A stretch of 55,702 bases of DNA from NCBI GenBank assembly GCA_024638845.1, contig JAHEJN010000013.1, positions 1,272 to 56,973 of the forward strand. Direction: 5' to 3'. The notes under the pieces were generated by a model. The model made no database searches. It saw only the letters and a list, made by a program, of their open reading frames with translations, and was not told the DNA's origin. The position numbers were made by a program, and so were the translations under genes. This DNA comes from Acidimicrobiales bacterium (lineage in GTDB: Bacteria; Actinomycetota; Acidimicrobiia; Acidimicrobiales; JAHEJN01). Within the stretch, counting starts at the first letter, position 1. Every line of letters begins with the position of its first letter. Below are positions 24,376 through 34,275 of this stretch, one piece after another.

Positions 24376-25155
24376 TCAGCGACTCGCGAGCTCTTTCCGG
24401 ACGGTTTCAGCCGCCGAGTCGAGGATATTGCCCAGTGATGCGGCGATTCCTTCTTCGAGCACGCCGGTCCACTCGTCGATGTAGATCTTCTTCATCTCCA
24501 CCGCTATCGAGCAGCCGACGTCTTGGTACCGGGCGTTGATCCATCGGGACATGGCGCCGCCTCGGAACTTGACGTTGGTTCGCACGTCCAGCGTGTCGTC
24601 GTAGAACGGCAGCTCGCTCATCGTCTTGGTGAAAGCTGCGACAACCGGGCTCCAACTGCTCGCAATCGACTCGGTGCCGAGATTCACCTCGGGGTTCAAC
24701 TCTGGATCATCGACCGCGGCATCAGGACCGCCGCGACGATGGTTGTACGAGTGGATGTCGAGCACGACGACGTGACCATGGGTTTCGACCACTCGGTCGC
24801 ACAGTCGACCCAGATCGTCATAGAACCGGTCGTAGATCTCGAGTGAGCGCTCGACCAAGTCGGCGCTCGGCTCGGACTTCCAGAGATCGAGGCCCCAGGC
24901 ATCCTCGGGGGTGACATAGACCGCCCGCTCTCGCGGCCGGTTGATGTCCAGCTCGAACCGGGACAGATCGACGACCACCGAGTTCCCGGCCACACGGGTC
25001 CATTGATCGGTGAACGGATCTTCTTCCCGGAGGCGTTCGGCGTCGGACAACTTGGTGAGCGCCTCGACCTCGGGTCTCAGACTGTGACCGGCGTGAATGG
25101 CCGTCGCGACGATCGAATCGTCGCCGGTGGTGACGATCCACGGCGCCTCGGTCAC
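24376..25155 (-). CDS. N-formylglutamate amidohydrolase-like Zn hydrolase
   Basis: The 259-residue protein has the family's three marks in order: ATAIHAGHSLRPE near residues 17-29 (metal His), DLSRFELDINRPRERAVY near 63-80 and VVLDIHSYNHRRGG near 130-143 (metal DxHS). The family hydrolyses N-formylglutamate and related amides. The GTG start at 25155 overlaps the stop of the ATP-grasp gene (GTGA), so the two are translated together. The upstream neighbour is a ligase that makes amide bonds and the divergent gene encodes a DUF1704 peptidase. A role in removing or recycling an amide-linked tag is therefore more likely than histidine degradation, as no hut gene is nearby. Confidence 0.88.
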   Translation of the reverse strand: MTEAPWIVTTGDDSIVATAIHAGHSLRPEVEALTKLSDAERLREEDPFTDQWTRVAGNSVVVDLSRFELDINRPRERAVYVTPEDAWGLDLWKSEPSADLVERSLEIYDRFYDDLGRLCDRVVETHGHVVVLDIHSYNHRRGGPDAAVDDPELNPEVNLGTESIASSWSPVVAAFTKTMSELPFYDDTLDVRTNVKFRGGAMSRWINARYQDVGCSIAVEMKKIYIDEWTGVLEEGIAASLGNILDSAAETVRKELASR

Positions 25156-26195
25156 AGGGTGGCCATTTCGATGTTGTTGAAGTTGCGCTTGTAGTACCCC
25201 ATGTAGCCGACCTTGCGCTCCAGACTGTCGATCACAGCATCGTTGAAGTTGACGCCTTCGAGCTTCTGGGACGACCCCAACCCGCCGGGGCTGAACACGT
25301 TGATCTCCATCAGCTTGTCGCCGACGATGTCGATTCCGACGAGGAACATCCCGTCTTGCACCAACTTCGGTCGCACGATCTCCGCCAGGGTGAAATCGAC
25401 ATCGGTCAGGGTGGCCTTGGCCAGCGTGCCTCCCGCGTGGAGGTTCGACCGCATGTCGCCCCCGGCGCGGACGCGTCGGAACGCGGCATAGCGTCCCTTG
25501 TGGCGGAGCGGTTCGCCGTTCATCAGGAACAAGCGGGTGTCTCCGGCTTCGGCCTGGGGGAGGTACTCCTGGGCGATGATGTAGCCGTCCCTGGCCACCG
25601 CATCGATCATCTGGTTCAGGTTGGCCGGATCATCGGCTCTCACCAGGAAGACGCTCTCGCCACCGGATCCGTGGAGCGGCTTCAAGACCGCTCGGCCTTG
25701 ATCTCTGACGAACTCGCGGATCAGGGCACGGTCTCGACTGATGAGGGTGGTGGGCCTGACCTCTTCCGGGAAGAGCTGGAAGTACATCTTGTTCTCGGCC
25801 TTCGCCAGTCCGTTGGGATCGTTGAGCACGATCACGCCGTGGCGCATCGCGACCCGACCGAAGTCCAGCGCTGCGGTCTTGGCCCACTCGCGCTTTCCCT
25901 TCTCGTCGGACGGCACGTTCCGGAGGAACAGGACGTCCAGGTCGTCGACCGTGAGTCGTTCGTGGATCGCCGCCTTGCCGTGGAGGTCACGCATGTAGGC
26001 GACGCCGTCTTTGTAGCGGGTCTTCGGTACCCGAACGGCGTTGGCACGTATCTTCTCGTCGGGGTCATAGGCGAGATCACCGACGCTTATCACCCAGGCT
26101 TCGTGGCCACGGTTGGTGAGTGCGACGCCGAGGCGAGTCGTCGTGTACCCGGTCTCCTCGGTCTTGATGTCGTTGACGACGAAACCTACACGCAC
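25152..26195 (-). CDS. ATP-grasp ligase, glutathione synthetase/RimK-like
   Basis: The 347-residue protein starts at GTG 26195 with GGGAG five bases upstream (MRVGFVVNDIKTEETGYTT). Residues 150-347 form the ATP-grasp fold. ENKMYFQLFPE opens it, RAVLKPLHGSGGESVFLV is the ATP-binding lysine and glycine loop, and DGMFLVGIDIVGDKLMEINVFSPGGLGSS ends with the Mg-binding EINV and the substrate loop typical of glutathione synthetase-like enzymes. It should join a carboxylate to an amine using ATP through an acyl phosphate. With no gamma-glutamylcysteine ligase in sight, a glutathione role is unproven. It is head to head with the DUF1704 gene and coupled to the amidohydrolase. Confidence 0.88.
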   Translation of the reverse strand: MRVGFVVNDIKTEETGYTTTRLGVALTNRGHEAWVISVGDLAYDPDEKIRANAVRVPKTRYKDGVAYMRDLHGKAAIHERLTVDDLDVLFLRNVPSDEKGKREWAKTAALDFGRVAMRHGVIVLNDPNGLAKAENKMYFQLFPEEVRPTTLISRDRALIREFVRDQGRAVLKPLHGSGGESVFLVRADDPANLNQMIDAVARDGYIIAQEYLPQAEAGDTRLFLMNGEPLRHKGRYAAFRRVRAGGDMRSNLHAGGTLAKATLTDVDFTLAEIVRPKLVQDGMFLVGIDIVGDKLMEINVFSPGGLGSSQKLEGVNFNDAVIDSLERKVGYMGYYKRNFNNIEMATL

Positions 26196-26348
26196 TCTGA
26201 CTCCCTGGTTCTTGTTCCTCACGAAGCCCTGGAGCCACCGAGTCGAGCCACGGCGGCCCGGGCCTAGAGTATGCGACGTGCCCTGGGACCACAATGAACC
26301 GCTGGGTCGGGAATAGTCTGTGGACCGCGGCGGCACACGGGAGAGGGC

Positions 26349-28250
26349 ATGACGAACTCAGCGGCTCCGAGGTTGGACGAGGAGCTCATCAAATCGGTGA
26401 TCGATCGACTGCGTCAGGATCGACCGATCCGAGAGACGTTGCCGGGCGACGGCTTGTTGAACATCGATCGGCGACTCCCGTTCCTGCTCGTGTATCGGCC
26501 CGCGCCAGAGGAGTCGAGCTCTCTGTTCTCCAGGATCCTGACCGGCGGGGCCTCGTACTTGGTCGCCCCGACGCCGAAGCGGTCGAGAGCATGGACGAGC
26601 CGACTGGTCGCCGCGGTCGCGAAGGAGTTGTCAGAGGGCTTCGGCGCGTTCCTGGTCATCGAGCTCTGGCCCAGCGCCGAGCTCGATGAAGAACACAAGT
26701 CGGCGGCAGCGGTGGCCAAACCCGGGTTCAAGCTGCACCTCGGCCCGGCGGTTCGAAGCTCCGGCACGGTCGAGAGGCTCGCATCGTCGCTCGAGCGCAT
26801 ATCGATCATGAAGCAACGGGCGGTCGTCGAGCGGGTGCAGGGATCCAAGATCTCTGCTCCGGGACTGCCTCAGCTGCTTCCAAAAAAGGCGAGGGACGAC
26901 CTGAACATCACCGTGGTCGGAGTCGAAGTCGCTCCGATCTACATCGATCCCGACACCGGGGACGAACTACCCCTGGTTGCACGCACGTTGGCTCGGCTGA
27001 TGGCTCGTTCTCTGCAACAGGGCGCATTCCAGTTCGCCCAGACCAAGACGAATGATCGCTCGCTGCATTACCACGCGCTCGGTCGCCGGACCTTCGTCGC
27101 GGCGGTCAAGAGGGTCGATCAACAGCTCACCGCGGTCGCCGAGTCGTTCGATCTCCTCATGGCGGTCACCCCGGTGAACTCCGAGGCCGCCTACCGGACG
27201 TTCAAACGATCGAAGTTCGAGCGTGCACCCAGATTCCACTATCGCCCGATAGCAGTCGATCCTGACCTCTTGAAGCGACAGCTCTGGGACATCAAGATCG
27301 AACGCGTGGAGGACCCTGTCCTCGATCACTTGTTCCGGGACAAGCGACGAGAGCTCGACCTGAAGCTCACACTCCTGGCCGAGCGTGAGCGCGAACGCTT
27401 CGTCCACACCAGCATGGCGCTCTACGGTCGACTCAACGACGACCTGCGGACGTCGGCGATCGACATTCTCGAGAACGTGCCGGCTCGAAATGGTGCCAGG
27501 ACCCAACGGACCGTCAGCGCACGAGAGTTCATCGCTCGGGCACAAGAGGAGTTCGAGCGGCTACGTCACACACCGGCACAGATGGACGGACAGATAATCG
27601 TCGACAAGGACGTCTCGTCGCTGATGGTCTCGTCGGGCAACCTGATCATCGGCGCCAACATGTCCTTTCCATCCAATCGCGTCGAGCCGCTCATTCAGCA
27701 CGAGGTCGGAACGCATGTCTTGACCTACTGGAACGGGCGGGCTCAGCCGTTCAAGCTCCTTGCCACCGGGCTGGCCGGCCACGATGAGCTGCAGGAGGGT
27801 CTGGCGGTGTTCGTGGAGTACCTGGTCGGCGGGCTCACCGCGAGCCGACTGCGGACGCTTGCTGCCAGGGTCGAGGCCGTCGGCGCGCTCGTCGGCGGTG
27901 CCACGTTCGTCGAGACGTTCCGGCTTCTCCGGGACGACTTCGGCCTATCGGAGCGCATGGCGTTCCTGATCACCATGCGGGTCTTTCGCGGCGGAGGGCT
28001 CACGAAGGACGCCGTCTATCTGCGCGGCCTCCAGGCGGTGATCCAGTACCTGGCCAAAGGTGGACGCCTCGACACCCTGTTCGTGGGCAAGATCGCCACC
28101 GTGCACGCGTCGGTGATCGAGGAGCTCCAGCGTCGCCAAGTGCTCGAGCCGCCCCCGTTTCGTCCGTCTTACCTCGACCAGCCGGACTCCCACTACCGGA
28201 TCGAGGCCATCAAGGCGAACCCCAGCCCGGCAGATCTCGTCGATGCGTAA
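26349..28250 (+). CDS. DUF1704 (QEGLA motif) zinc metallopeptidase
   Basis: The 633-residue protein has HEVGTH at residues 451-456 (HExxxH zinc site) and QEGLAVFVEYL from 482, whose glutamate is the third ligand. This pair defines DUF1704, sometimes labelled 'flavohemoglobin expression-modulating QEGLA protein'. Its eukaryotic relatives (KIAA0895/MATCAP) remove the C-terminal tyrosine from tubulin. The N-terminal ~230 residues are the family's conserved domain. The ATG at 26349 has GGAGAGGG upstream. The gene is divergent from an ATP-grasp ligase/amidohydrolase pair, a linkage that suggests trimming of a peptide or small molecule made by the ligase. No signal peptide. Confidence 0.88.
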   Translation: MTNSAAPRLDEELIKSVIDRLRQDRPIRETLPGDGLLNIDRRLPFLLVYRPAPEESSSLFSRILTGGASYLVAPTPKRSRAWTSRLVAAVAKELSEGFGAFLVIELWPSAELDEEHKSAAAVAKPGFKLHLGPAVRSSGTVERLASSLERISIMKQRAVVERVQGSKISAPGLPQLLPKKARDDLNITVVGVEVAPIYIDPDTGDELPLVARTLARLMARSLQQGAFQFAQTKTNDRSLHYHALGRRTFVAAVKRVDQQLTAVAESFDLLMAVTPVNSEAAYRTFKRSKFERAPRFHYRPIAVDPDLLKRQLWDIKIERVEDPVLDHLFRDKRRELDLKLTLLAERERERFVHTSMALYGRLNDDLRTSAIDILENVPARNGARTQRTVSAREFIARAQEEFERLRHTPAQMDGQIIVDKDVSSLMVSSGNLIIGANMSFPSNRVEPLIQHEVGTHVLTYWNGRAQPFKLLATGLAGHDELQEGLAVFVEYLVGGLTASRLRTLAARVEAVGALVGGATFVETFRLLRDDFGLSERMAFLITMRVFRGGGLTKDAVYLRGLQAVIQYLAKGGRLDTLFVGKIATVHASVIEELQRRQVLEPPPFRPSYLDQPDSHYRIEAIKANPSPADLVDA

Positions 28251-28950: not shown

Positions 28951-29349
28951 ATGTTGCTAGCTGCAGAGTTCGGATCTGGCCAGGTGTTGTGGTCGTTCGT
29001 TTGGTTCTTCCTGTTCTTCGTCTGGATCATGTTGCTGTTCACGGTGTTGGGCGACATCTTCCGTAGTGATGACCTCTCGGGTATATCGAAGGCGATCTGG
29101 CTGCTGTTCGTGATCTTCCTGCCCTATCTCGGGATCTTCGTGTACCTCATTGCCCGTGGTGACAAGATGGCGAAGCGGCGGGCCGAGATGATCCAAGACC
29201 AGGATGAAGCTACCCGCGCCTACATCCGATCCGCCGCCGGCTCTTCGAGCACAGCTGATCAACTGGCGTCACTTGCCGAGCTCCACAGCAGCGGCAAACT
29301 GTCCGATGAAGAGTACGCCTCGGCCAAGGCCAGCGTGATCGGTAGCTGA
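28951..29349 (+). CDS. PLDc_N/SHOCT membrane protein (copy 1)
   Basis: The 132-residue protein has two helices of PLDc_N type (SFVWFFLFFVWIMLLFTVLG and AIWLLFVIFLPYLGIFVYLI). A basic stretch and a C-terminal SHOCT segment (TADQLASLAELHSSGKLSDE, EYASAKASVIG) follow. A second copy of exactly the same length is at 30697-31095. SHOCT tails are short oligomerisation or binding modules found at the ends of bacterial envelope proteins; the function here is unknown. ATG 28951 has GAAGGTG upstream. Confidence 0.85.
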   Translation: MLLAAEFGSGQVLWSFVWFFLFFVWIMLLFTVLGDIFRSDDLSGISKAIWLLFVIFLPYLGIFVYLIARGDKMAKRRAEMIQDQDEATRAYIRSAAGSSSTADQLASLAELHSSGKLSDEEYASAKASVIGS

Positions 29350-29389
29350 TTCCGGCCGTCGGAGCGGCCCGCCCACGGATCGCTCGCGG

Positions 29390-29791
29390 TCAGGTACCGG
29401 CCACTTCATCGCCGTGTACGGCCAGACCGTAGATGATCAGACCGTCGATGATGATGATGAGCCACGACCAGGCCGGATAGACCGACATGAACGACATCTG
29501 CGCCAGAACGTTCATGGCGGCGCCGGTCATGCCCAGCACTCGGGCCCACAGATCGCCGTGGAATATCCCCATGGCCACGAAGAGCTGAAACGCGGCGAAC
29601 ACCAGATAGATCACGCCGACCGTGGTGAGGTCGAATCTGATCAACGCCTCAGGGGTGATGACGATCCAGTCGTCTTTCAGCAGCAGGGTCAGAGCGAAGA
29701 TCAGGTTCGCCAGGCCGGCGATCACCGTCATCGTGCCCGCGAACACGACCCATCCGCTCGTCGTCAACCGTTCGTAGCTGTACGTTGCCAT
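29390..29791 (-). CDS. DUF7144 membrane protein
   Basis: The 133-residue four-helix protein starts SYERLTTSGWVVFAGTMTVIAGLAN, the typical start of actinobacterial DUF7144 proteins. It continues LVFAAFQLFVAMGIFHGDLWARVLGM and ends after a last helix with VHGDEVAGT. The family has no known activity. Start ATG 29791 with a GGAG eleven bases upstream. It sits among SHOCT proteins and a lipoprotein, suggesting an envelope or stress group. Confidence 0.75.
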   Translation of the reverse strand: MATYSYERLTTSGWVVFAGTMTVIAGLANLIFALTLLLKDDWIVITPEALIRFDLTTVGVIYLVFAAFQLFVAMGIFHGDLWARVLGMTGAAMNVLAQMSFMSVYPAWSWLIIIIDGLIIYGLAVHGDEVAGT

Positions 29792-29867
29792 TTGGGCGTC
29801 TACTCCTTGGATCTCATGTGACCGGGTCTGGGCGTAGCTCCGACTCCTGCACCTGCCGCGCGAGCGA

Positions 29868-30647
29868 TCAGCGCATCGCCGCCTCGACCGGAGCGACGGC
29901 GCCGTTCACCTGCTGGCGCCGCTGACTCATGGTCTGCACGGCGGCATCGACGAGGGCCATGTTGTTGGCCGACTGAGGGTCGCTGCGCACCGAAACGTAG
30001 GACTGCATGGCGTTACGCAACGACGAGATCGACTGCCCGAGATAGGTCAGCGCCTGTTGAGTCGAGGCGTCGCTGCTGGTTCCGGCCGTGGCCGCGATCT
30101 GGCTCTCGAGGTCGATGGTGCGCTCGCGAATGGCGAACCATGCGTGGCCGAGCTGCTGAGGATCGGTTATGCGCAGAAGATCGCTGCTACCCGAGTCGAC
30201 GAGCCACCTGGCCGCACCGACGAGCTGGCCCAGTCGGCGATTCCGATCGGCTCTGGCTGCCGCCTTCGAGTCGGAATGGCTGGTAGCGGCAGACGCGGCG
30301 AACAGAATGATTGCCAGCGCTCCGAGGCCGAGGAGGACGATGATGAGCCAATCCTCGTCCGAGAGCTCGTCGTCGGCCCCGGGGGTCGGCTCGGTGGGAG
30401 CCGGTGTCTGTTCGGGAGCCGGCGTTTCCTGAGGAGGTGGTGTTTCTTCGGGAGGTGGTGTTTCTTCGGGAGGTGGTGTTTCTTCGGGAGCCGGCGCCTC
30501 TCCGGAAGGTGGCTGAGTGTCGGAACTACATGCGCTCAGCACGGCGACCAGGCCCAGACCGAGCAACATGACCAACACGAGGCGCACCAGCGCAGCCGGC
30601 TCGGGGCGTCGAGCGTCGGCGGGTCGATTGTGGGTGGGCGATCTCAT
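29868..30647 (-). CDS. Lipoprotein with Pro/Glu/Thr-rich repeats and one helix
   Basis: The 259-residue protein has a signal peptide with lipobox LSAC (Cys40). Residues 47-90 are a PET-rich linker with a three-fold PPPEET repeat. A transmembrane helix then appears at about 100-120 (DWLIIVLLGLGALAIILFAASAA), and a helical domain runs to the end. A lipid-anchored N-terminus followed by a second helix would put the repeat outside the membrane and the C-terminal domain inside. It is 49 bases behind the SHOCT gene at 30697-31095 on the same strand. Confidence 0.7.
   Translation of the reverse strand: MRSPTHNRPADARRPEPAALVRLVLVMLLGLGLVAVLSACSSDTQPPSGEAPAPEETPPPEETPPPEETPPPQETPAPEQTPAPTEPTPGADDELSDEDWLIIVLLGLGALAIILFAASAATSHSDSKAAARADRNRRLGQLVGAARWLVDSGSSDLLRITDPQQLGHAWFAIRERTIDLESQIAATAGTSSDASTQQALTYLGQSISSLRNAMQSYVSVRSDPQSANNMALVDAAVQTMSQRRQQVNGAVAPVEAAMR
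30433..30486. repeat. Three 18-bp tandem repeats
   Basis: The unit GGAGGTGGTGTTTCTTCG is present three times in a row with no differences, inside the lipoprotein gene. It codes for the PPPEET repeats on the minus strand. Identical copies suggest recent slippage, and the copy number is likely to vary between strains. Confidence 0.85.
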
Positions 30648-30696
30648 TTCGGCGTTGCCTTTCGAGGGTGCAGGGGAGAGTACGTGACGCGAAGAG

Positions 30697-31095
30697 TCAG
30701 CCGTTGACCGCGCGGTTCTTGGCTTGGGCGTACTCCGCGTCGGACAGCGCCCCCGACTCGTGCAGCGCAGCCAGCTTCGAGAGCTCGTCGGCCGCAGACT
30801 GGGTTCCGGCCGCGTCTCGAATGTAGGCCTGGACCGCCTCCTCGGAGGCTCGAGCTGCCTCCTCGTCGCGGCGGCTCATGTCGCTGCCGTTCACGATGAG
30901 ATAGAGGAACACGCCGAGGTACGGCAAGAAGATGATACCCACGGTCCACAGCGCCTTGCCCCAGCCCGAGAGGCTCTTCGCTCGGACGATGTCGCCGAAC
31001 ACCGTGAAGAGCAGCCAGATCCAAATGAAGAACAGGAAGAACCACAACATCGACCACAGCACCTGGCCGCTGCCGAACTCCGCTGCTACCGCCAT
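30697..31095 (-). CDS. PLDc_N/SHOCT membrane protein (copy 2)
   Basis: The 132-residue protein is paralogous to 28951-29349. They share AEFGSGQVLWS, two PLDc_N helices (MLWFFLFFIWIWLLFTVFGD, IIFLPYLGVFLYLIV), YIRDAAG and the SHOCT end (ELSKLAALHESGALSDAEYA). Start ATG 31095 is behind a strong CAGGAGGT site. It is followed by the lipoprotein gene, so the two are likely one transcript. Confidence 0.85.
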   Translation of the reverse strand: MAVAAEFGSGQVLWSMLWFFLFFIWIWLLFTVFGDIVRAKSLSGWGKALWTVGIIFLPYLGVFLYLIVNGSDMSRRDEEAARASEEAVQAYIRDAAGTQSAADELSKLAALHESGALSDAEYAQAKNRAVNG

Positions 31096-31221
31096 GAAAC
31101 CGACCTCCTGAGACTGTGAGTTACCGACGGCACGGTAGTGCTCGAGCCTCTCGACGTCTACAAGCGCGAGGAATTCACCCCAGGTGATCGAGAAGGTCCC
31201 CGTGTTCACGCTGACGGCGTC

Positions 31222-31230
31222 TGCTATAAC
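31222..31230 (+). promoter_or_regulatory. Extended -10 of a leaderless promoter
   Basis: TGCTATAAC matches the extended -10 (TGn plus TATAAC), six bases before the ATG at 31237. No good -35 is present, as is usual with an extended -10. It implies a leaderless mRNA for the DUF6325-like gene. Confidence 0.55.
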
Positions 31231-31236
31231 TCTTCG

Positions 31237-31968
31237 ATGCTTGGACCCGTACAGCTGATCGTCTTCCAGTTCGACACCCTCGATCGCTTCCGAGGCGACA
31301 TCCTCGATCGCCTCGAGGAGTTAGCTCCCATAAATGCCGTGCGCGTGCTCGACGCGCTCTTCGTGGCCAAGGAGGAGAATGGCGACCTGGTCGCCCTCGA
31401 GCTGGGTGACCTCGGCGAGGAGGAGGGCGACGACGTTCTCGGCGCCATCATCGGCGAGCTGCTCGGTTTCTCCTTCGACGGCGAGGATCCCAGTGCACCT
31501 CCGGCCGAGATCACCGAAGCTTCTGCGATCGGCGTCACCGTGGCCGACGTTCGTCGCATCGCGCGAGACCTCGCACCAGGGACCGCAGCTGCGTTGTTGC
31601 TGATCGAGCATCACTGGGCCGCCGGTCTCCGAGACGCAATCGCCGATGCGGGTGGATCGGTCATCCTTCAGGGCTTCCTCACGCTCGAGGGCCTGGCCAT
31701 GGTGGGTGCCGAGATCGCGGCGACCGCCGAGGCCATCGCTGCCATCGAGCTCGCCGATGCACTCGAGGCCGAAGCCACGGTGCGCTCACTCGAGGCACTG
31801 GCCACCATCGAGATAGCCGACGAGATCAGAGCCGCCGTGGTGGCGAACACCATCCTCGGCCTGGTCGAGGCCGGTTACATCGAAGGCGCCGACGCCGAGG
31901 AGGCCGTCGCCGCAGTGCTCGGTGATGACATACTCGAAGCCGTATCCGCCAGCGAAGGGACCTCGTAG
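31237..31968 (+). CDS. DUF6325-like protein
   Basis: The 243-residue protein opens MLGPVQLIVFQFDTLDRFRG, then NAVRVLDALFVAKEENGDLVALEL. This is the beta-alpha-beta start of DUF6325/DUF1269-like proteins found next to SHOCT proteins in actinobacteria. The middle has a helix-rich part (AAALLLIEHHWAAGLRDAIADAGG). The end is strongly acidic and alanine-rich (residues 165-240). It is probably soluble or weakly membrane-bound. ATG 31237 follows an extended -10. Its stop abuts the next ATG (TAG-ATG). Confidence 0.7.
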   Translation: MLGPVQLIVFQFDTLDRFRGDILDRLEELAPINAVRVLDALFVAKEENGDLVALELGDLGEEEGDDVLGAIIGELLGFSFDGEDPSAPPAEITEASAIGVTVADVRRIARDLAPGTAAALLLIEHHWAAGLRDAIADAGGSVILQGFLTLEGLAMVGAEIAATAEAIAAIELADALEAEATVRSLEALATIEIADEIRAAVVANTILGLVEAGYIEGADAEEAVAAVLGDDILEAVSASEGTS

Positions 31969-32253
31969 ATGCCTCCGGCCCGACGATCAATGCGCCGCAC
32001 CGCGCGCCGAACCTCACGCCGCACGAGCCGGCGAATGGACCGCCGCATGCAGGCCAGCGCGCCGGCTCCGGTCTATGAACCGGCTCCTGCTCCGGCTGCG
32101 GCGCCTGCACCGGCTGCGCCGACACCGGCGGCGCCCGCCGAACCGGTGCCGGCCTACATGGCCGAGCTCGAACAGCTCGCCAGCCTGCGCGACGCCGGAA
32201 TCCTCTCGAACGACGAGTTCGAGGCCAAGAAGCGGCAGATACTCGGTCTCTGA
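31969..32253 (+). CDS. Small Arg-rich SHOCT protein
   Basis: The 94-residue protein has three parts: an Arg-rich start (residues 4-27; RRTARRTSRRTSRRMDRRM), a Pro/Ala linker (28-58) and a C-terminal SHOCT module (ELEQLASLRDAGILSNDEFE). The ATG comes directly after the TAG of the DUF6325-like gene, with GGGA as ribosome site. The basic start could bind nucleic acid or phospholipid head groups. It is the third SHOCT gene within 3.3 kb. Confidence 0.75.
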   Translation: MPPARRSMRRTARRTSRRTSRRMDRRMQASAPAPVYEPAPAPAAAPAPAAPTPAAPAEPVPAYMAELEQLASLRDAGILSNDEFEAKKRQILGL

Positions 32254-32286: not shown

Positions 32287-34275
32287 TCAGCGGCTTCCGC
32301 TACTGAGCGTGGGGATTTGGGCGGTTGGCGGCTCGGCACCTTGCTTCTCGGCGCGGGCGTCGCCATAGAGCAGTGTCAGCGCGACCGCACCGATGGGCAC
32401 CACGAGCGCGGAAACCAGGGTGACCAGGACCGAGAACAGCCACAGCGGCAGTTGGCTGACCAGCACGAGCAGGATCACACCGACGACCGTGGCGCTGACC
32501 AGCACCAGCCCGTTGACGATCGCCAGCACGACGGCAGTGTGCAACCAGCGGCCGCGGATCAGCTCCGAGCTCCTGGCCAGCGACGCTTTGGCGTCGAGGC
32601 CTTCGAGCACGACCACCTGAGCCACGAACTGGTAGCGCACGACCTGTCGGATGCCCCACGGGATGCCGATGATCGTCGCGAACAGCACGATGACGATGAC
32701 CGAGGCTCGCAACAGTGCCGATCCCAGGGTGCGTCGCTCACTCCACGCCAGCTTCGCCGCAGCCCCGACCGGCAGAGGCTCGTCGCCGTCGGCCCGGCCC
32801 AGATGCGCTGCCATCATTGCGTTGACGAGTACCAGCGCGACGAGGTGCGGAATGCTGCCGGCGAAGAGGGCCAACACGAGGCTCGTGCCGCTCGCCCGCC
32901 CGGCAACGCCGACAAGATCGCCGAGCAGCGGAGCGATGGACAACAGCGCACCCACCACGGCAACAACCGCGGCGGCGGGTAAGTAGACCAGGCCGAATCG
33001 GAGCATGGCCCGCGTTGTCCAGCGGTGGCCGGTTCCGGCCAGTCGAAGGATCTGCCCGACACTTCGTCGTTGCACCAGTGGCAGCGGGGCCACCGGCTCC
33101 CAGGTGGTCCGGCGCGTCGCCCACCCGGCGAGCGCGACCAACAGGCCGAACGTGATGAGCAGTGTCACTGGTGAAGTCGTGAACGAGATGAGGACTCCCG
33201 ATCCCCATTCGACGACTCCGCAGAACGCCGAGATCACGGCGGTGGCCTGCGAGTCGCCGCTGGGTACGACGACGCTGGAGGCCCGTAGCTCCTCGTGCCA
33301 GTCGATCGGCTCGAGCCAGCGACCTTTGGCCGCCGGACCCGTCGGGCCGTTGAACGGACCGTTCTGGCGCTCACCCCAACGTCCGGCATATTCCAGCCAG
33401 GCCAAGGGGCTGTCCGCATCGGCCACCGAGTCGGGCAACACCACCACCTCGGGTTCGAGCCGATTCGACGGGCCATCGGTGTTGTCGCACCCGAAACCTT
33501 CGCTGCCGGAACGTCCGAGGTACAGCGCCGAGCCGAAGTAGCTGGCATGCGAGCCGGCCGAGGAGTACACGAGCGGATGACTTCCGTCACGTTCGAGCTT
33601 CGATGAATCCCAGTCGGCGCGCTCGCCGCCCTCGTGTTGGGCGTAGCCGACACTCACCGGTTCCGAGGCCAGCGCTTCTTCGATCGTCGACGCATCGAAC
33701 AGCAGCTGGATCCCTTCCCAGTCGCTCTCGTGTTTGTTGTTCCAGTCGTTGTAGTACCAGTAGAACCAGTATTGGAGGGCGAGCTGGTCGGGGTGGCCGT
33801 CCTGTTTGACGACATGGGCGTAGACGGTCGTCGGCCGGTCACGGCTGTATTTGCGGTAGTCGGTCTCGTAGATGCACCCGGGCTGAAGCGCCCCGCCGGG
33901 AAAGTCGAGGAAGAACCCCTGACCCAGCTCGAACAGGTCGGAGGCACCCGGTGCGTTCATGATCACCGGGTTTCCGGGGCCCACTTGCCGCAAGACGACC
34001 TCGGGGTTGTCGAGCACGATGTCGATCGACGTCGGCCCGTACGGCTCACCGTCCTGATCGCACTCTGCCTCCTGTGCCTTCAGCATCATGATCGGCGCGT
34101 ACCGCTGCGCGAGCTCGAGCGCACCCTCCGGGTCCTGTTCGGCGATGTCGTCGGCTCGAGCGGCCGGGGCGAGGATCCCCACCGTCAGACCGATGATCAG
34201 CCCGATCAGCCCGAAGACCCGAGACGCCGTGCGCCAACGTGGCGTCGTGGTGTGTCGACGCTTCTGAGCGCTCAT
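32287..34275 (-). CDS. Vps62-related protein with C-terminal multi-helix domain
   Basis: The 662-residue protein has an N-terminal helix or signal (residues 15-42). A Vps62-like domain follows at about 45-340, with RYAPIMMLKAQE, YWFYWYYNDWNNKHESDWEG and YSSAGSHASYFGS being typical. The C-terminal 300 residues hold about seven helices with the 'AKASLARSSELIRGRW' pattern seen in glycerophosphodiesterase-membrane-type domains. The Vps62 part should lie outside the cell. Activity is unknown. It starts ATGA on the MFS stop and is the last gene of a three-gene operon. Confidence 0.75.
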   Translation of the reverse strand: MSAQKRRHTTTPRWRTASRVFGLIGLIIGLTVGILAPAARADDIAEQDPEGALELAQRYAPIMMLKAQEAECDQDGEPYGPTSIDIVLDNPEVVLRQVGPGNPVIMNAPGASDLFELGQGFFLDFPGGALQPGCIYETDYRKYSRDRPTTVYAHVVKQDGHPDQLALQYWFYWYYNDWNNKHESDWEGIQLLFDASTIEEALASEPVSVGYAQHEGGERADWDSSKLERDGSHPLVYSSAGSHASYFGSALYLGRSGSEGFGCDNTDGPSNRLEPEVVVLPDSVADADSPLAWLEYAGRWGERQNGPFNGPTGPAAKGRWLEPIDWHEELRASSVVVPSGDSQATAVISAFCGVVEWGSGVLISFTTSPVTLLITFGLLVALAGWATRRTTWEPVAPLPLVQRRSVGQILRLAGTGHRWTTRAMLRFGLVYLPAAAVVAVVGALLSIAPLLGDLVGVAGRASGTSLVLALFAGSIPHLVALVLVNAMMAAHLGRADGDEPLPVGAAAKLAWSERRTLGSALLRASVIVIVLFATIIGIPWGIRQVVRYQFVAQVVVLEGLDAKASLARSSELIRGRWLHTAVVLAIVNGLVLVSATVVGVILLVLVSQLPLWLFSVLVTLVSALVVPIGAVALTLLYGDARAEKQGAEPPTAQIPTLSSGSR

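Follow-up and report, generated by a model that had tools for sequence, protein, structure and literature searches.

The SHOCT domain (PF09851) is a short C-terminal two-helix domain carried by otherwise unrelated proteins (PMC3581485, in its available text). Here we analyse a block of six small genes at positions 28,951 to 32,253 of a 55,702-nucleotide stretch of DNA (the window) from an Acidimicrobiales bacterium (GenBank assembly GCA_024638845.1, contig JAHEJN010000013.1, positions 1,272 to 56,973), in which three of the encoded proteins share this kind of tail: two paralogues that join it to a PLDc_N domain (PLDSH1 and PLDSH2) and a smaller protein, SHOCT3. The remaining genes encode a DUF7144 membrane protein, a lipoprotein-like protein and a DUF6325-like protein. 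The published account of SHOCT covers the domain and its architectures but, as far as its available text goes, names no DUF6325, DUF7144 or PLDc_N-SHOCT module (PMC3581485).

Phage shock protein (PSP) and PSP-like systems resemble the block in combining membrane proteins with SHOCT-tagged partners and in their proposed assembly at the inner membrane face (PMC11237479, in its available text), but no PspA, PspC or Toastrack Pfam match was found among ten proteins of the block and its flanks. Glutamate-dependent acid resistance (gad genes, HdeD/DUF308) finds a parallel in relatives of the block that lie beside glutamate decarboxylase and near DUF308 genes, although the window itself yielded neither. 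The DUF6325 and DUF1269 families (PF19850, PF06897) offer a further comparison: profile comparison places the window's protein with DUF6325, and DUF1269 genes also lie near the modules, but the protein is extended at its C-terminus by an Ala/Glu-rich stretch and has no Pfam match of its own.

Results

PLDSH proteins, DUF6325-SHOCT pairs, DUF7144 proteins and a fifth family of membrane proteins, here called MF, are inherited together and often adjoin one another. In a sample of 296 genomes of the phylum Actinomycetota, PLDSH was present in 41, DUF6325 in 34, DUF7144 in 52 and MF in 50, with PLDSH counted from 53 matches of at least 100 bits (weaker ones were dropped, and one counted match, in G109, has two internal stops) and with two DUF6325 pieces in G364 joined for the co-inheritance and adjacency counts. 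DUF6325 was accompanied by PLDSH in 32 of its 34 genomes (4.7 expected), by MF in 33 (5.7 expected) and by DUF7144 in 26 (6.0 expected); PLDSH and DUF7144 shared 27 genomes (7.2 expected), and all four families occurred together in 23, where independence would give 0.1. Fisher p values for these counts are inflated by kinship and were given no weight. Within taxonomic families the PLDSH-DUF6325 link persisted (28 observed, 15.55 expected, z 6.2), in a table drawn from the genomes listed by the DUF7144, DUF6325 and PLDSH searches that leaves out unlisted genomes and most single-genome families. The original prediction, made from the window's sequence, had grouped these genes as a unit and named co-occurrence as the check; the families do recur together, and the absence of co-occurrence elsewhere that it gave as grounds for rejection is not the pattern seen.

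Physical linkage pointed the same way. With the window's genome excluded, there were eight PLDSH-DUF6325 pairs within 5 kb (0.16 expected), nine PLDSH-DUF7144 pairs (0.18 expected) and eight DUF6325-DUF7144 pairs (0.17 expected). A SHOCT gene lay within 1 kb of 24 of 33 DUF6325 genes, one of the nine misses being at a contig end. Of 77 DUF7144 genes, ten had a SHOCT no more than 1.5 kb away (0.2 expected) and 17 had one no more than 5 kb away (0.65 expected); these genes come from 40 of the 52 DUF7144 genomes, the window's genome and 11 others, most of them with weak matches, being excluded. Across 60 DUF7144 loci, PLDSH/SHOCT genes formed the commonest neighbour group (14 loci) once DUF7144 itself and overlapping-frame groups were set aside, under single-linkage grouping that merges both SHOCT types; a large LuxR-type regulator recurred in ten loci and DUF6325 in eight. 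Among 53 PLDSH loci, SHOCT3-type genes recurred in ten and DUF7144 and MF in eight each, but a dehydrogenase-like family also recurred, in nine, so that recurrence alone is no proof of a unit.

Individual genomes preserve recognisable arrangements. In G024, from another family, one contig preserves the genes for PLDSH2, the lipoprotein, DUF7144 and PLDSH1 with unchanged order and orientation, and a second carries DUF6325 and SHOCT3 together with a Vps62-like gene. G267, which belongs to a third family, has a PLDSH gene and a DUF6325-SHOCT pair in divergent orientation; the window's PLDSH2 groups with this G267 copy and with a G024 copy (support 98/91). Annotated plasmids carry DUF6325-SHOCT-SHOCT in Rhodococcus koreensis and R. 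opacus and SHOCT-DUF6325-SHOCT in R. qingshengii. The PLDSH profile recognises the longer SHOCT proteins, making these three-gene runs of DUF6325, SHOCT and PLDSH. On the chromosome of Streptomyces sp. ms191, SHOCT, DUF7144 and DUF6325 genes adjoin.

The SHOCT tail is borne both by membrane proteins (PLDSH and, in three genomes, MF) and by the small protein that partners DUF6325, which itself looks soluble. MF, which has no Pfam or NCBIfam name except for the SHOCT domain of one member, lies beside module genes in many loci and ends in a C-terminal SHOCT domain in G052, G053 and G368 (L034:247-1821, L165:1024-2370 and L166:789-2153). In G052, which belongs to the window's own family, the MF-SHOCT gene is 2.1 kb from a DUF6325-SHOCT3 pair.

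All six genes of the block were found where the original prediction had placed them. PLDSH1 (28951-29349, plus strand, 132 aa) and its paralogue PLDSH2 (30697-31095, minus strand, 132 aa) are 59% identical, and their genes form an inverted duplication with 113-nt arms that are 81% complementary. Each has two hydrophobic segments and passes the PLDc_N (PF13396) cut-off of 23.3 (26.5 bits, E 6.2e-6 for PLDSH1; 28.6 bits, E 1.4e-6 for PLDSH2). The SHOCT cut-off of 27 is exceeded by PLDSH2 (29.0 bits, E 8.3e-7) and SHOCT3 (38.3 bits, E 9.6e-10); PLDSH1 falls below it (23.4 bits, E 4.9e-5) and aligns with PLDSH2 over its full length. Pfam and NCBIfam-type scans of the 132-aa proteins found no catalytic (HKD) PLD family after PLDc_N. 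Only four SHOCT matches occur in the 3.7 Mb assembly and three of them fall inside this 3.3 kb block which, together with the recurrence of the grouping elsewhere, places it beyond chance.

Between the PLDSH genes, and facing PLDSH1, the minus strand encodes the DUF7144 membrane protein (29390-29791, 133 aa) and the lipoprotein-like protein (29868-30647, 259 aa). The former has several hydrophobic regions and matches positions 1-114 of the 115 in the PF23636 profile (E 9.3e-28). The latter gave nothing above cut-off in Pfam and has two hydrophobic regions by hydropathy: a signal-like segment, followed by VLSAC, whose cysteine we take to be a lipobox candidate, and a second segment before a helical-looking tail. 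An 18-base repeat in its gene, in five steps, codes for Pro/Glu units. The G024 copy has a nearby cysteine (LLAGC). Only the window and G024 carry this gene as part of the block. G052 and G006 have weaker relatives at other sites; the G052 relative (L168:5699-6481) adjoins a YGGT-like gene, away from the SHOCT genes of that genome.

PLDSH2 is divergent from the DUF6325-like gene (31237-31968, plus strand, 243 aa), across an intergenic region (31096-31236) that may be a shared control region and in which a promoter scan found no site. By eye, a TATAAC lies about 6 bases upstream of the DUF6325 ATG (31215-31236); no clear ribosome site accompanies it, and the transcript is perhaps leaderless, although the promoter scan did not report this TATAAC. 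SHOCT3 (31969-32253, plus strand, 94 aa) follows with an Arg-rich head, an Ala/Pro linker and the SHOCT domain; neither it nor the DUF6325-like protein has a hydrophobic region. The DUF6325-like gene ends in a TAG that directly abuts, in frame, the SHOCT3 ATG (31966-31971), as in L111 (3654-3659, a 78% identical relative), and this abutment suggests that the two are translationally coupled.

The block is best read as two adjoining modules, PLDSH2/lipoprotein/DUF7144/PLDSH1 and DUF6325-SHOCT3, because G024 holds both on separate contigs. The gene grouping of the original prediction stands as a real cluster, not as a single operon but as a convergent and divergent array of two separable modules. 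Beyond it, and convergent with SHOCT3, lies a gene for a Vps62-like membrane protein (32287-34275, minus strand; PF06101, E 1.7e-5), whose membership of the unit is uncertain. On the other side of the block, a gene for a QEGLA/MATCAP-family protein (26349-28250) adjoins what appears by eye to be an ATP-grasp (glutathione synthetase-like) gene (25152-26336).

The DUF6325-like protein matched no Pfam family at E<=0.1, and so does not reach the PF19850 cut-off. A profile built from 13 relatives, with the window excluded, matches it at E 7.3e-25, and three of the 13 (L060, L064 and L037), scanned in longer form, pass the PF19850 cut-off; judged by these profiles, it is homologous to DUF6325 members. 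No solved structure matched the DUF6325 profile at E<=1. A by-eye likeness of its C-terminal extension to SHOCT was dropped, as no profile supports it. In L122 (9207-12236), a gene close to PLDSH joins a DUF1269 domain to a sulfatase, and related open reading frames occur in four more PLDSH loci.

Neighbours of the relatives provide leads to function. In six loci, each from a different genome, glutamate decarboxylase has DUF6325, DUF7144 or PLDSH genes close by, the nearest of them 79 to 2617 bases away (L034:2368-3795, L036:5767-7137, L077:2379-3770, L038:128-2194, L051:7328-8707 and L035:11818-14523). This count was made post hoc, once about ten families had been inspected, and is not normalised to copy number per genome. 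The G052 protein matches glutamate decarboxylases of solved structure (best E 4.8e-160). DUF308 proteins, a family linked to HdeD, also recur near module relatives. As a post hoc lead, these neighbours suggest a function in acid or membrane stress. The envelope assembly or stress role of the original prediction is plausible but unproven, and these neighbours favour stress over assembly.

Discussion

We consider it highly probable that the genes of this block form a real unit. That they constitute, as a whole, a conserved membrane-associated module of Actinomycetota in which SHOCT serves as a shared tag is a reading to which we give about even odds. In such a complex, the SHOCT helical hairpin would bring DUF6325 and the Arg-rich SHOCT3 to the inner membrane face, where PLDSH and MF would be the docking targets, much as the original prediction proposed that SHOCT tails may let these proteins meet. 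DUF7144 would be a further membrane subunit, as would the lipoprotein in this lineage, and the assembly might sense or buffer membrane or pH stress. SHOCT-like domains are predicted to be membrane anchors in the available text of the PSP survey, which fits the proposed gathering at the membrane (PMC11237479). A fuller version is speculative and, in our judgement, unlikely: PLDc_N-SHOCT and MF proteins would offer reversible docking sites to soluble DUF6325-SHOCT pairs, DUF7144 would be one more subunit, and glutamate decarboxylase would be a partner in pH homeostasis.

Several results weigh against a complex of this kind. In the available text of its description, a SHOCT domain failed to multimerise its carrier protein, leaving oligomerisation unsupported (PMC3581485). 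AlphaFold modelled the DUF6325-like protein with low confidence (mean pLDDT 55.8, from three sequences) and a Foldseek search with that model returned nothing at E<=0.001, so we claim no fold for it; a model of a DUF6325-SHOCT read-through fusion gave no confident interface (pTM 0.20, pLDDT 42.2). Neither glutamate decarboxylase nor DUF308 was found in the window, nor was an MF gene, the single MF of this genome lying on another contig. PLDSH and DUF6325 are unlinked, with no pair within 5 kb, in 24 of the 31 genomes that have both. Finally, an unrelated control family, Dyp_perox_N (44 of the 296 genomes), occurs in 15 of the 34 DUF6325 genomes (5.1 expected), and since it too exceeds chance, a common lifestyle must account for part, though not most, of the co-occurrence.

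The behaviour of this control, and the fact that most family pairs are unlinked within a given genome, might also be expected if these were separate small genes of a stress regulon, brought together by common lifestyle and regulation in no physical complex, with SHOCT a generic tail for anchoring or stability. The occurrence of SHOCT on many other proteins (PMC3581485, in its available text) and the predicted anchoring role of SHOCT-like tails (PMC11237479, likewise) are compatible with this explanation. Yet PLDSH (32/34) and MF (33/34) accompany DUF6325 far more often than the control does, the PLDSH-DUF6325 link survives within families, and the SHOCT genes close to DUF6325 (24/33) and the MF-SHOCT fusions fit poorly with unconnected genes, so that we regard this explanation as rather doubtful.

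PLDSH1 also weakly matches the N-terminus of cardiolipin synthase (TIGR04265, E 2.7e-5), which raises the alternative that PLDSH proteins are regulatory membrane parts in phospholipid (cardiolipin-type) metabolism and that the other genes tune lipids. Genes of the diacylglycerol/acylglycerol kinase family lie near PLDSH on two plasmids, with a similar one in L059, and near the G024 block are a PLDc_N-only gene and a gene with an LPG-synthase membrane region; but PLDSH lacks a catalytic phospholipase D domain and such neighbours appear in few loci, which makes a lipid role improbable. The inverted duplication of the PLDSH genes, the separation of the two modules in G024 and the restriction of the lipoprotein within the block to the window and G024 could each be the chance outcome of local gene shuffling and of duplication of paralogues. 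However, these families are neighbours in many independent genomes and G024 retains the four-gene block; the recurrence counts largely refute an accident, which we consider highly improbable.

The original prediction also held that the unit had not been described. The open-licence PMC literature searched contains no mention of DUF6325, which agrees with that view but cannot prove absence; the papers retrieved there in one of the searches make no mention of DUF7144, and searches for a link to stress returned, in the available text, no paper treating these families as a group.

No function has been assigned to the widespread SHOCT, DUF6325, DUF7144 and PLDc_N-only proteins. Their co-inheritance, adjacency and domain fusion link them, with MF, into one testable unit. 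For SHOCT, to which the available text of its 2013 description gave no settled role (PMC3581485), this provides defined candidate partners in culturable Streptomyces and Rhodococcus.

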